Below are positions 23,133 to 32,363 of a DNA stretch of 64,000 nucleotides, one piece after another (positions within the stretch are counted from its first letter, which is position 1; each line of letters opens with the position of its first letter). Under the pieces are notes generated by a model. That model was not told the DNA's origin, made no database searches, and saw only the letters and a program-made list of their open reading frames with translations. This DNA comes from Sulfurisphaera ohwakuensis (GTDB taxonomy: Archaea > Thermoproteota > Thermoprotei_A > Sulfolobales > Sulfolobaceae): the NCBI RefSeq assembly GCF_009729055.1, contig NZ_CP045484.1, forward strand, positions 2,304,872 through 2,368,871, given 5' to 3'. Made by a program: the position numbers and the translations under genes.

Positions 23133-23184
23133 AAATTAACATTAAAGATAACTCTAATAAAGCTTAATTAGTTATTTTTAGTTG

Positions 23185-23511
23185 ATGAATGAGGAAGTTA
23201 TTTCAATACTTTGGAAGGTAATAGATAATGATATACCATTAGTAAATGATGATATGCATACTTTTCTAATAAAAGATGGGGAAATTACTGAGGAAGATCT
23301 AAAAATATGGAACGATGCAGTTAAGAAAATAAAAGAGGCATATAAAAAATTAATTTTTAATGAGAATGAAGCCAAATCACTTTTAAATTCTTCTTTAGAA
23401 CTTTTAAATTCAATAAAACCTAAAAAGCCCTTTCCACCAGAGGTAAGAATTAGGTTCGAAGAACTAAAAACATCAGTTGCAAAATGTATAGAGCTTATAA
23501 GTAAGGCTTAA
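23185..23511 (+). CDS. Hypothetical helical protein
   Basis: A 108-residue, highly charged, all-helical protein (for example NDAVKKIKEAYKKL and SLLNSSLELLNSIK) without recognisable motif or membrane segment. ATG 23185 is chosen over the TTG three bases earlier. It is divergent from ctaA. An inverted repeat that may end its transcript follows immediately (23515-23565). Function unknown. Confidence 0.6.
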   Translation: MNEEVISILWKVIDNDIPLVNDDMHTFLIKDGEITEEDLKIWNDAVKKIKEAYKKLIFNENEAKSLLNSSLELLNSIKPKKPFPPEVRIRFEELKTSVAKCIELISKA

Positions 23512-23585: not shown

Positions 23586-23704
23586 TTCCCTATAAGCCTA
23601 TTTAATATTTTTTAACGAGTTCTCCCTATAAGCTTTGCTGAAAGTTCCGTGAATAACTAAGGATAATTTTAAAAATATTTAGGACAGAAAAGCTTATAGG
23701 GAGA
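23586..23704. promoter_or_regulatory. Three copies of TCCCTATAAGC in front of the permease gene
   Basis: TTCCCTATAAGC occurs at 23586-23597, TCTCCCTATAAGCTTTGC at 23621-23638, and the reverse complement AAAGCTTATAGGGAGA at 23688-23704, ending 4 nt before the ATG. A TATA-like TTTTAAAAATATTT at ~23667-23680 lies between copies two and three, so the third copy sits on the likely transcription start. Two direct copies plus one inverted copy around a promoter is the layout of an operator set for a sequence-specific regulator. The regulator is unknown. Confidence 0.55.
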
Positions 23705-23708
23705 TTAG

Positions 23709-25130
23709 ATGGGACTTGCTAAAGGATCTTTGAGTATAAGAGAAGCTTACGGCCAAGCTATGGCAGTTACTGCACCATTAGGTAGTGTAGTTTCTACTAC
23801 AACAGCCGCAATTGCTTATGCTGGTAAGGCAGTAGTTTTTGCCACAGTTTTAGCTCTAATTGGTAGTGCATTATGGATTTACACACTTACAAGGTATTCA
23901 TCAAAAGTAGCCTCGGCTGGAGGATATTATACATATGGTGCAGCAGCGTGGAGAAAAAGAACTCTTGCCTATTATGAAGCTGTAATTGAAGTTATAGCTT
24001 ATTCAGCTCTAAATGCAGTAAACGCTTTAGCGATATATTTACTCATTCAAACTTACTCACAAATAGTTAATGTTACTATCCCCGATTACGTATTATACTT
24101 ATTTATTGCTTTAGGTTTGCTTTATCCAACAATAATCTCATTTACGACTCATATAAGAAGTTTGTTAGGTAAAATAGTTAGTGTAAGTGCTACGCTAGAA
24201 GTTATTATGCTTTACGCAATGTTCATTTATGCCGTAGCAACTAAGGGCTTTAGTTTATCTTATTTTAGTCCTTCTGGTGCATCATTAAGCGCTATAGGTA
24301 CTGCTATGATATTATCAATTGTAAGCATATCTGGTGCTGGTGCATCAACATATCTAGGCGAAGAATCTAAAGTACCTAGAAAAACAATAACATTTGGTAT
24401 GTGGTTGTCTTTAATAATTGGTGGTTCTGCAATACTAGCTGGTACTTATGGTTTAGTCGCTCTATGGAACGGTTCTTTAACAAGTTTAGAAAATTCTAAT
24501 CAACCACTTATTCAAGAGTTATTTGCATTTGGGCTTCCTATAGTGATGATCGGATTGCTAATGTCAATAAATAGTTTATTAGCGTCTAATATAGGTACAA
24601 CTGTAGGCAGTGCTAGGGTTCTATTTAATTTAGCTAGAGAAAAAGCTATGCCTAAATTATTCGAAAAAACTAATAAGACACAAGAACCTATTATGGCAAC
24701 TATGTTCGTAGGAATTCTATCAGCTTTATTTGCAATATTTTCGATAATTATAACAGGATCAGTTCAAAATGCCTTTAACGAGATTAGTGTTGTAACAAGT
24801 GTCTTTTGGCTAGCTGGAAGGATAATAGACGGTTTTGGTGTTCCAGTATTCTATTGGAGGATTAATTCTTTATCACTGCCAGTTTTAATAATTCCAGTAT
24901 CAGCTACATTAATAAATACTACTGGTGTAATTTTATCATTCCAAACACCCGATGTATTTCAGAGTCTATCAATTTTAGTAATACTTCTATCAGCAACAAT
25001 ATGGTACATTGCAAAAGCTAGAAAAGGATTAGCTGGAACTTATGTAGTTGACGATAACAACGAATTGGTTAGTATTGATGAATACATTGAAAAATTAAAG
25101 AAAGAAAGAAGCGTAGTAAGTCAAACTTAA
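23709..25130 (+). CDS. APC-superfamily amino acid permease
   Basis: A 473-residue transporter with about 12 TM helices. Residues ~12-30 (YGQAMAVTAPLGSVVSTTTA) correspond to the TM1 unwound substrate-binding region of APC transporters, and GAGASTYLGEESKVPRKTI resembles the conserved loop after TM6. It probably imports an amino acid or amine by proton symport. The promoter region holds a three-copy repeat (23586-23704), so the gene is likely regulated. The MFS gene begins 25 nt downstream and may be co-transcribed. Confidence 0.82.
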   Translation: MGLAKGSLSIREAYGQAMAVTAPLGSVVSTTTAAIAYAGKAVVFATVLALIGSALWIYTLTRYSSKVASAGGYYTYGAAAWRKRTLAYYEAVIEVIAYSALNAVNALAIYLLIQTYSQIVNVTIPDYVLYLFIALGLLYPTIISFTTHIRSLLGKIVSVSATLEVIMLYAMFIYAVATKGFSLSYFSPSGASLSAIGTAMILSIVSISGAGASTYLGEESKVPRKTITFGMWLSLIIGGSAILAGTYGLVALWNGSLTSLENSNQPLIQELFAFGLPIVMIGLLMSINSLLASNIGTTVGSARVLFNLAREKAMPKLFEKTNKTQEPIMATMFVGILSALFAIFSIIITGSVQNAFNEISVVTSVFWLAGRIIDGFGVPVFYWRINSLSLPVLIIPVSATLINTTGVILSFQTPDVFQSLSILVILLSATIWYIAKARKGLAGTYVVDDNNELVSIDEYIEKLKKERSVVSQT

Positions 25131-28457: not shown

Positions 28458-31400
28458 ATGAAAAGTGTTTTATCTGTACCTATAGCTGTTATAATATTAT
28501 TTAGTATATTAACTATAATATCGCCAATAAATAGTTTTTCTGCAACTTATATAGGACCTCAGTTAAAAGGAGTAAAAATAGGTTCTCTCCCTCAAAATAT
28601 GGAAATAACAGTAGGTTTTCTTATTCCTCCTAAAAACTTTAACTTACTATACTTAACAGCGGAAGAAGTTGCTAATCATCAGACTAAACCAATTTCATTT
28701 AAACAAGTTATGAAAGAGTTTGCACAGACCCAGTTGGAAAACGAAGTTACAAATTATCTGGAATCTCATGGTTTCTCTATTTCAGTGCAAAATCCTTTTG
28801 TGGTTATAGCTGAAGCTCCGGTTTCCGTAGTTGAAGAAACTTTTCACACTACCCTGGATTTATATAGGTATGGTAACATAGTATATTATAAGCCTTCTAC
28901 AAATCCTATCTTACCCTCATTCTTTGCTGGGGTTACAATTAATGGTCTAACTAACTATACTACTTATAATTATCAACTAAATCTTGAGGTTTTAGGTAAG
29001 GTCGTAAATGGTAAATTAATTCCTAATATGACATTTCCACAAGTAACTACTTTTCAGTTTGCTGCAGATATGTATTCGCCTCAAGATATTGTTGGTGCGT
29101 ATAATATAACTCAAGGTGGTAATGGTACTACTGTTGCAATAATTGATGCATATGGTGATCCTACAATTTATGAAGATTTACAGATTTTTGATCAGCATTT
29201 CCACTTGCCACCAGTTAATTTAACTATTATTCCTTTAGGACCTTATCATCCAGTCTTTGGTTTATTTACTGGTTGGGATATAGAAACTGCTCTTGATGTG
29301 GAGACAGTTCACGCTATTGCTCCTTATGCTCATATAGTCCTAGTAGTTCCCTCTACTCCTGGCTTAATTCCAGAGGCTATTGACTATATAGTTAGTGAAG
29401 ATTTAGCGAATGTAACTTCTATGAGTTTTGGAATAATAGAGAATACAATAGGAGATACGGGGTTCTATTTTGTATTTGACGGAGTTCCAATGCCTAACTT
29501 ACCCTATTGGGATTATTATTTTGCTTTAGGCACAGTTGAAGGAATTTCATTCTTTGCTGCTAGTGGGGATGAAGGTGCTTATGGCGGAACATTAACAACA
29601 TACGGAGGAGTTTCTTATCCTGCAACCTCACCCTTTGTAACTGGTGTTGGTGGAACTTCGCTTTATGTAAATGTAACTTCTGGTTATCTTTCTGCTCAGA
29701 ACTCTAGTGCTACATATGGTTTTGAAACAGGATGGAGCATATTTAACTTAGACTTTCCATTTATAGGTAGTGATGGAGGTTATAGTACTTATTATCCAAA
29801 GCCGTGGTATCAGTACATGATTAATGGTACCACTAGAGCTACGCCAGACGTTGCGGCAGATGCTAATCCATATACTGGTTTGCTGATATATGTCTTAGGT
29901 CAAGAAGAAGTAATAGGAGGAACGAGCTTATCTACACCAATATGGGCTGGATTAGCTGCAGATCTCATTTCAATTATTCATAAACCATTAGGGTTGTTTA
30001 ACAATATTCTATATTGGATCTACTCAAACTCCACGTTATATAACCAAGCATTTCACCAAATAACTTTCGGATTTAATGGGTTATATTCAGCCCATTCTGG
30101 ATATAATTTAGTAACTGGTTTAGGAACTCCAGACTTTTACGGTTTATTAAAGGCTGTAGAAGATTACTTTAAACAATCGAGGTTAGCTATATCTGTTACT
30201 GCTACGGAGCCTGGGGTACCTTATCCGTGGTTTATGTATAATACAACTTTTGAAATTATTGCAAAAATTAGTTATCCAAACACTACAATGGTTACTAGTG
30301 GATCTTTCTCAGCTTACATATATACAACTGAAGGGCTGTTAACTAAAATACCATTAACATTTAACGGAACCTATTGGGTAGGAACATATACTATTTCACC
30401 TGGAAATCCACCTAACATATGGTTAGTAGTTGTTAACGGAACTTCTAGTGGTATATCTGGTACTGGAGTTTACGAAATAACTGTAGGTCTTTCAATAGAT
30501 ATAATTTCACCATTACCTTTCCCATTTGAAATAACTATACCTCCAAATGAACCATTTGAAGTAGTTGCATGTATATACTATCCTAACTTGACTCCAGTAG
30601 AATATCCTTCATTTACAGCCTACTTCATTCATGATACTAAAAACATATTTAATGTAACCTTATTACTAACTAGAATTCCAGGACTATATGAAGGAGTATA
30701 CGCTTTAATAACACCAGAACCAGAGGGAGTTTATTTAATGTATATTAATGATTCTTATAGTTCTGCGTATATATATCAGACCTTTGGAGGAATAAACGTT
30801 GAAACACTCGTATTCACTCCAATTGATGATGGATTTTCTTCAGTCTCACCGGGAGAGAATATAACAATATTCTCATTTACCTTTGATCAGAATGGTTTAG
30901 GTATTTTCACATCTAATGTAACAGCCTTTATATACAATCCTCAAGGAAAACTTATTACTGAAATACCACTTAAATTGGCGTTAGATATTGTACAATTTGG
31001 AGATATAATTGCTTTCGGTTATCACGAGGCTAACTATACAATTCCATTAAACGCTACACCTGGAATATATACTATAGTAACCGAGGCATGGTATAATAGT
31101 TCCATAGGTGTCGAAGAACTTAATTACACAGACTTCATTTATGTGTCTCCTTATGTTATTCATACTCAAGTGAAATATGAGGGAAATGCAATTGAAGGAG
31201 AAAATATAAAGGTTTATGCTAATATCACTTATCCTAACGGTACAGAAGTAAAGTATGGAGAGTTCCAAGCTACATTAGTACCATCAGAATTACAATTTGA
31301 ACAATTAATATTAGAATTCTACACTGAGATACCACTACAGTATAATTCCACATTAAATGAATGGGTAGGGGTCATTTCAGTTCCTTCGATAAATTCAACA

Positions 31401-32363
31401 AATATATACCAAGGAGCTCCGCTCTACTCTCTAAGCGGTCCATGGTATTTAGAAGTTAGCGGTATTTCACCCGAAGGGGCTATTACAGAGTCAATTAACA
31501 ACTTCCTTACAGTTCTTCCTTACACTGATATAGGTACAAAGATAATTACTCCTATTAATGCAACTAGTATAGGATTTGCTTATCAAGGAGGTGCAATAGA
31601 ACTAACTCAAATATATTCACCCTCGTTAACGCTTATGAACGGTAAATACATATTAAATAACGTAATTGTAAATACTCTTATTATTAAGAATTCTACGGTT
31701 GCAATAATAAATTCTAAGCTAAATACACTACAAACGTATTCATCAAATGTTAATGTCATAGATAGTGAAATATCAAATAGTAAAATTGGAATAAGTAGTA
31801 TAGCATCAAATATTACATTAGCCTCAGTTACCTTTAGTAATGTTAATTATGCAATCAATCAGACTGCAAATACCAACGTATTCCTGCATGGTGTTAATCT
31901 AAATAATGTAACTGCTTTGAGTGCAATACCTGCACCTAAGATAGTTTCTTATCCTACTAATATAACTAGTTTAACGAATAATATTACATTAAGTATAAGT
32001 GGAGAGTATTTAAAGGTTATAAGTGTAGAGCTAGACGGTAAAACGATATTCTATTCAGTTACTTCTACGACATCTGGGATAGAAATAACTATTCCGTTCA
32101 ATTCTGCTACTATGCCATCTGGAAACAATATAATTACTTTAGCAATTTCTGATGGAATAGAATATAATTATACATTAGTTGTATATAATAGTTATCCATT
32201 AATACAAGTTCATTCAACAATTAACGCCCTAAATTCATCGGTAATTAATCTTAAATCTTCATTATCAACTACGACAGATATATCAATAATTGGTTTAGTT
32301 ATAGCTATAATTGCAGTTATTCTCTTTTTACTTTTACTCTTTAGGAGGGGTGGGAAAAGATGA
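28458..32363 (+). CDS. Membrane-anchored S53 (sedolisin) acid protease with long surface stalk
   Basis: A 1301-residue secreted protease. A signal peptide (~1-30) is followed by an activation prodomain (~40-190) and the S53 catalytic domain (~205-580). The catalytic Glu and Asp are in DIETALDVE (ExxxD), the oxyanion Asp in AASGDEGAYGG and the nucleophile Ser in GGTSLSTP; a Ca-site-like GLGTPDFYG closes the domain. Residues ~590-1040 are beta-rich Ig-like repeats, ~1040-1160 look like a beta-helix (NSTVAIINSKLN), and a C-terminal TM helix ends in FRRGGKR. Sedolisins work at acid pH, fitting the outside of a thermoacidophile. Its stop overlaps the next gene by 4 nt. Confidence 0.9.
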   Translation: MKSVLSVPIAVIILFSILTIISPINSFSATYIGPQLKGVKIGSLPQNMEITVGFLIPPKNFNLLYLTAEEVANHQTKPISFKQVMKEFAQTQLENEVTNYLESHGFSISVQNPFVVIAEAPVSVVEETFHTTLDLYRYGNIVYYKPSTNPILPSFFAGVTINGLTNYTTYNYQLNLEVLGKVVNGKLIPNMTFPQVTTFQFAADMYSPQDIVGAYNITQGGNGTTVAIIDAYGDPTIYEDLQIFDQHFHLPPVNLTIIPLGPYHPVFGLFTGWDIETALDVETVHAIAPYAHIVLVVPSTPGLIPEAIDYIVSEDLANVTSMSFGIIENTIGDTGFYFVFDGVPMPNLPYWDYYFALGTVEGISFFAASGDEGAYGGTLTTYGGVSYPATSPFVTGVGGTSLYVNVTSGYLSAQNSSATYGFETGWSIFNLDFPFIGSDGGYSTYYPKPWYQYMINGTTRATPDVAADANPYTGLLIYVLGQEEVIGGTSLSTPIWAGLAADLISIIHKPLGLFNNILYWIYSNSTLYNQAFHQITFGFNGLYSAHSGYNLVTGLGTPDFYGLLKAVEDYFKQSRLAISVTATEPGVPYPWFMYNTTFEIIAKISYPNTTMVTSGSFSAYIYTTEGLLTKIPLTFNGTYWVGTYTISPGNPPNIWLVVVNGTSSGISGTGVYEITVGLSIDIISPLPFPFEITIPPNEPFEVVACIYYPNLTPVEYPSFTAYFIHDTKNIFNVTLLLTRIPGLYEGVYALITPEPEGVYLMYINDSYSSAYIYQTFGGINVETLVFTPIDDGFSSVSPGENITIFSFTFDQNGLGIFTSNVTAFIYNPQGKLITEIPLKLALDIVQFGDIIAFGYHEANYTIPLNATPGIYTIVTEAWYNSSIGVEELNYTDFIYVSPYVIHTQVKYEGNAIEGENIKVYANITYPNGTEVKYGEFQATLVPSELQFEQLILEFYTEIPLQYNSTLNEWVGVISVPSINSTNIYQGAPLYSLSGPWYLEVSGISPEGAITESINNFLTVLPYTDIGTKIITPINATSIGFAYQGGAIELTQIYSPSLTLMNGKYILNNVIVNTLIIKNSTVAIINSKLNTLQTYSSNVNVIDSEISNSKIGISSIASNITLASVTFSNVNYAINQTANTNVFLHGVNLNNVTALSAIPAPKIVSYPTNITSLTNNITLSISGEYLKVISVELDGKTIFYSVTSTTSGIEITIPFNSATMPSGNNIITLAISDGIEYNYTLVVYNSYPLIQVHSTINALNSSVINLKSSLSTTTDISIIGLVIAIIAVILFLLLLFRRGGKR

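Follow-up and report, generated by a model that had tools for sequence, protein, structure and literature searches.

To our knowledge, few regulons have been defined in Sulfolobaceae. According to the parts of the publications available to us, the work on those with which we compare the present locus started from the protein and used ChIP-seq (PMC6746942, PMC4977709, PMC6449355). YtrASa, a GntR-family protein of S. acidocaldarius, covers the start site of transcription and represses by blocking RNA polymerase, as stated in the accessible text of PMC6746942. The Lrp-family proteins BarR and Ss-LrpB of Sulfolobales and the TetR-family protein FadRSa of S. acidocaldarius are the other systems considered here (extracts of PMC4977709 and PMC6449355, respectively).

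In the case reported here the DNA side comes first. What is defined is an element of 9-16 bp, the fixed geometry of its three sites and a regulon of two gene families. The window, i.e., the whole stretch of 64,000 nucleotides of Sulfurisphaera ohwakuensis that was analysed, includes an amino-acid permease gene with three copies of this element in front of it. The element spans S. acidocaldarius, Metallosphaera and relatives. Judged by comparison of sequences, the three-copy element is a real regulatory array, and its regulon looks to consist of this permease gene plus, in each genome, one or two genes of the Na+/Ca2+-exchanger family.

The array in front of the permease gene

The array sits between a small gene and the permease gene. 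The features, in coordinates of the window, are as follows.

23182-23511, + strand: small gene 5' of the permease gene, 109 aa; a conserved neighbour, outside the array
23587-23597, + strand: site A (distal); exact TCCCTATAAGC; its core CCTATAAGC begins at 23589
23621-23636, + strand: site B (middle); exact TCTCCCTATAAGCTTT, with TCCCTATAAGC inside it at 23623-23633
23667-23676, + strand: predicted TATA-like box of the permease promoter, TTTTAAAAAT; a TATA-like run aligned across the orthologues
23689-23704, - strand: site C (inverted); exact TCTCCCTATAAGCTTT, with TCCCTATAAGC at 23692-23702; reads AAAGCTTATAGGGAGA toward the permease
23709-25130, + strand: APC-superfamily amino-acid permease, 473 aa (PF13520, E=2.9e-16)

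The two direct copies and one inverted copy reported by the sequence-only reading are indeed present, all three as exact TCCCTATAAGC (23587-23597 and 23623-23633 on the forward strand, 23692-23702 on the reverse strand). That reading also described each copy as embedded in TCTCCCTATAAGCTTT-like sequence. The description is accurate for B and C, the only sites with exact TCTCCCTATAAGCTTT, and holds only roughly for A, which reads TTTCCCTATAAGCCTA and has just the core in common with them. The core of the three sites can be written as CYTWTAAGC and its extended form as CTCCCTWTAAGCTTT. The genome of 2,803,915 bp has eight exact copies of TCCCTATAAGC, three of which fall inside the 116 bp of the array; the pattern read backwards has no copies in the whole 2,803,915 bp genome. 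The search of the plasmid collection gave no match.

The usual distance from the TATA box to the transcription start in archaea is about 26 bp. Counted from the TATA-like TTTTAAAAAT, this distance puts the predicted start of the permease transcript at about 23697, within site C, which fits the earlier suggestion that the inverted copy overlaps the likely transcription start. The distance from the TATA-like box to C is near-constant in the orthologues, and that from C to the start codon is variable.

Conservation of the array across Sulfolobaceae

An orthologue of the permease was found in all 31 Sulfolobaceae genomes searched, and the search of 29 other genomes of the order gave one weak match. 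We scored a site as present if at least eight of the nine letters of the core CYTWTAAGC were in place in the orthologous promoter. By this measure A is kept in 28, B in 29 and C in 30 of the 31 promoters, and all three sites are kept in 28 of them at near-fixed spacing; this is the opposite of absence from orthologous promoters, which had been named as a reason to reject the element. The exceptions are G013, which has no array, G008, which has C only, and G018, which has B and C and a degenerate A. Measured from core start to core start, the A-B spacing is 36 bp in 25 of 28 promoters and 35-37 bp in the rest, and the B-C spacing is 67 bp in 18 of 29 promoters and 66-68 bp in the rest.

The sites are better conserved than their flanks in the orthologous permease promoters. 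Among 13 representatives, the mean pairwise identity is 0.91 for A, 0.87 for B and 0.96 for C; outside the sites it is 0.57 and 0.41 in the linkers and 0.34 upstream. For site B (12 bp) the mean between-genus identity is 0.87 vs. 0.41 in the adjoining linker. The lengths of the linkers are thus kept and their sequence is lost, as expected for sites that are bound in one complex. The G008 permease promoter, in which A and B are lost and C is retained, is a natural test of the role of A and B (L110, L205). The small gene of this genome lies about 1.18 Mb away from the permease gene.

B and C together make a 20-nt inverted repeat, 95% complementary, with arms 44 nt apart. Such a repeat could also act as a cis-acting RNA, namely as a hairpin that hides the permease start in a read-through transcript from the small gene. 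A strong B-C hairpin is predicted for such a transcript (z-score -4.96), and the B:C pairing within the same genome is slightly above that of swapped pairs (81/5000 permutations, uncorrected for relatedness). Even so, we consider an RNA function most improbable: in several genomes B and C fail to pair at the W position, A:C has no such signal (907/5000), the exchanger genes discussed below have C and no partner arm, and no Rfam family scored above threshold, the only match being one to rox2 at chance level (E=0.097).

In 27 of 32 loci the small gene stands directly 5' of the permease gene, also at loci with a different outer neighbourhood. It occurs in 28 of 60 genomes, all of them of Sulfolobaceae. 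Its product is predicted to form a four-helix bundle (single-sequence model, pLDDT 90) and has the invariant residues W, P, L, D, K, P, P, P and R; it has no match in Pfam, and no solved structure related to the predicted fold was found at E <= 0.001. As a candidate for the protein that binds the array, this product was rejected. The gene is absent from G004, G010 and G018 (of which G004 and G018 are incomplete assemblies), and these genomes retain B and C. Its own promoter has no full (9/9) core in 27 of 27 cases. Together these observations make it a poor candidate. On the other side of the permease gene, the run of transporter genes includes a gene (28458-32363, + strand) for a protein of 1301 aa, probably a secreted protease, in which a pro-kumamolisin activation domain (PF09286) was recognised.

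The element at Na+/Ca2+-exchanger genes

A random spread of the motif across the genome had been named as another reason to reject the element. The five remaining exact TCCCTATAAGC copies of the source genome all lie within ORFs. In eight genomes we listed 57 exact copies of TCCCTWTAAGC, of which 15 are permease sites and 42 are others. Among 40 of these 42 that were examined, 35 are inside ORFs and five are intergenic, and two of the five intergenic copies are directly 5' of Na+/Ca2+-exchanger genes. A search with a profile of the sites ranked the three permease copies of the source genome first to third. The only recurrent downstream genes across genomes among the 49 further top matches were those of the Na+/Ca2+-exchanger family (PF01699); the profile was scored on 150 first-look candidates per genome, and weaker members may be missed. 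In two genera a HAD-type gene is divergent from the exchanger genes found among these top matches.

We then collected all exchanger genes from the 31 genomes (50 rows) and tested 47 of them, from 30 genomes; two fragments in G018 and one in G027 were left out. The test was for a C-type core at most 100 bp upstream of the gene and oriented as in the permease promoter. Such a site is upstream of 30 of the 47 genes, in 26 of the 30 genomes, and the core in the opposite orientation was found for one gene of 47. Shuffles gave a mean count of 0.16 and a maximum of 2. The site of the G013 exchanger (GC-rich, with a TTG start) is doubtful, and the counts are 29 of 47 genes and 25 of 30 genomes if it is set aside. 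The other 17 genes have no site; in G006, G007, G010 and G015 no exchanger has a full-match site. The element of the permease promoter thus recurs at further promoters, and does so across genomes. The suggestion that the regulon includes other transporters is supported in a narrow form, as the exchanger family is the sole other recurrent target found.

The exchanger genes have C and neither A nor B, which are found at the permease only; this indicates that C can act alone. In several genera the site belongs to a distant exchanger paralogue and not to the closest orthologue. The paralogues with the site have 24-38% identity to the query, and the leading GC and trailing GG of the site are still kept. 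The variation among genera in which paralogue has the site argues for selection on regulation.

All 30 exchanger sites end 22-26 bp 5' of an in-frame start codon, which is the expected place of a TATA box in a leaderless gene, and CTTATAAG is readable as a TATA box. The exchanger copies could accordingly be TATA/BRE boxes that resemble the permease sites by chance, with no common regulon. This is an improbable explanation in our opinion. We examined 252 genes (13 neighbourhoods and the window) and found a C-type site near the start of 14 of them, namely 13 permease entries (one gene is counted twice, in the window and in one neighbourhood) and one exchanger. Among these 252 genes, GCTTAWARG near the start is confined to the two families, i.e., the element is not seen there at ordinary promoters of unrelated genes. 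Moreover, the letters that do not resemble a TATA box (the leading GC and trailing GG) persist in the distant paralogues, and the permease element is not at the TATA position.

No wider regulon emerged from several searches. The 40 exact copies in eight genomes and the 49 best profile matches gave no other recurrent target, and 20 further exact copies of CCTWTAAGCTTT gave no additional one. A spaced search that included a start codon was run on 21 genomes; its listed matches, judged by eye, gave no further recurrent target either. Some individual observations were made in the course of this work. There is a single match at a Rieske-type gene in G029 (L040). The sequence TCTCCCTATAAGCAGTACT recurs together with its surroundings, near-identically, in short ORFs at several places of G000 and G003 (L065, L067, L084, L089); these repeats probably stem from a mobile or repeated gene and have nothing to do with the promoter array. 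In G000 (2,432,000-2,440,000; L281 867-3152) a TnpB-like gene and another gene resembling a transposase are directly 5' of the exchanger gene. They end about 400 bp before it, and the C-type site is intact.

Proposed mechanism and comparison with known regulators

From the conservation, geometry, sharing, orientation and position of the element, all of which are observed, we infer protein binding, repression, leaderless starts and cooperation of A and B. With a probability of about 0.6, A, B and C would be operators of a single sequence-specific transcription factor in Sulfolobaceae, which would most likely act as a repressor and control very few genes. The TATA position and the transcription start are the typical positions of archaeal repressors. 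C is at the TATA position in the exchangers and at the predicted start in the permease, which favours a repressor operator. At the exchanger genes, a protein bound to the single C-type site at the TATA position of a leaderless gene would keep TBP off; most transcripts of S. acidocaldarius are leaderless, as stated in the available part of PMC10653856. At the permease gene, a protein bound to C would cover the predicted transcription start and keep RNA polymerase off. Further copies of the protein would sit on A and B, whose distances upstream are fixed, and would stabilise or tune the repression through a defined nucleoprotein complex. In the reading that we favour, A and B are auxiliary sites that only the permease has, but they could equally serve activation.

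Archaeal activators bind upstream of BRE/TATA, and some archaeal Lrp-type proteins exert dual control, with damping at high occupancy. The same factor with the same regulon might then be an activator or a dual regulator, in which case A and B would recruit or stabilise the basal machinery and C would damp transcription at high occupancy. A and B are upstream of BRE/TATA at rigid spacing and are found at the permease only, the exchangers having C alone; multi-site operators are described for BarR (PMC4977709, the part available). We regard this version as possible but unlikely. In both families C coincides with the expected place of a repressor, either the predicted start or the TATA position, and with spacings of 36 and 67 bp adjacent sites would not face the same side of the helix (at 10.5 bp per turn).

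Several observations do not agree well with the repressor operators that we prefer. Among them are the 17 exchanger genes that have no site, the four genomes in which no exchanger has a full-match site, and the finding that no regulator gene recurs beside either gene family. Acd1 (G013) retains the permease gene and the small upstream gene and has no array. Besides, the orientation of C is constant, which is stricter than a freely reversible operator needs. The constant orientation may reflect a double duty of site C, which may also serve as a TATA box in the exchangers, or a separate promoter class. Sulfolobales have extra TFB proteins. It can be imagined that GWAAAGCTTAWAGG, which always points the same way and takes the TATA position in leaderless exchanger genes, marks a distinct class of promoters at which a dedicated initiation factor (e.g., an extra TFB) replaces TBP/TFB1; the permease array would then be the most complex member of this class and would tie the uptake of amino acids to the exchange of calcium or protons. 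We consider such a class highly improbable. In general, the sequence-only reading was right on observation and largely right on interpretation.

Neither gene clusters nor inspection by eye revealed a regulator gene that recurs beside the permease or the exchangers. We took G017 as S. acidocaldarius because its Lrp/aminotransferase pair (1.964 Mb) and GntR gene (1.6216 Mb) match the published coordinates. In these coordinates the permease sites are at 369.67-369.79 kb and the exchanger site is near 1.4805 Mb. Two described regulators were tried as candidates and rejected for the conditions under which their peaks were mapped. None of the five ChIP-seq peaks of YtrASa in Table 1 of PMC6746942, obtained under the published growth conditions, is at 369.7 kb or 1.4805 Mb. 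Table 1 of that paper assigns 1621827-1622073 to Saci_2078 and 1897151-1897397 to ytrASa; there is a GntR gene at about 1.6216-1.6219 Mb of G017 (L276), so the two labels look swapped in this table (PMC6746942). For BarR, none of the 21 ChIP-seq peaks given in the available part of PMC4977709 for the tested conditions is between 46,668 and 554,848 or between 1,431,591 and 1,563,444. The BarR motif TTGGAAAAATTACAA, as given there (PMC4977709), is unrelated to CCCTWTAAGC when compared by eye. We found nothing on this element in the open-licence literature, which is no proof of absence.

The element is a ready bait for capturing its putative regulator. It would connect the uptake of amino acids to cation exchange in acidophiles, in which both bear on proton balance; the physiological connection is our conjecture.

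As far as the available parts of the publications go, the described systems share features with the array. The regulon of YtrASa is also a tiny one of membrane-protein genes, with a motif over the transcription start and flanking auxiliary half-sites, and it was also defined partly through phylogenetic footprinting (PMC6746942). Unlike in our case, the ChIP-seq targets confirmed for YtrASa comprise its own operon plus a single further membrane-protein gene (PMC6746942), whereas the array and exchanger loci have no linked regulator gene that we could find. BarR and Ss-LrpB resemble the putative factor in having several regularly spaced sites per control region and targets related to amino acids, but the inter-site spacing of BarR is about 280 bp vs. 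36 and 67 bp here (PMC4977709). FadRSa is similar by description, being a repressor with semi-palindromic sites at few genomic loci, but it regulates a fatty-acid gene cluster at 903-932 kb (PMC6449355). On the genomic evidence, the array is family-wide, marks a small transporter regulon and adds a further case to a known kind of control.
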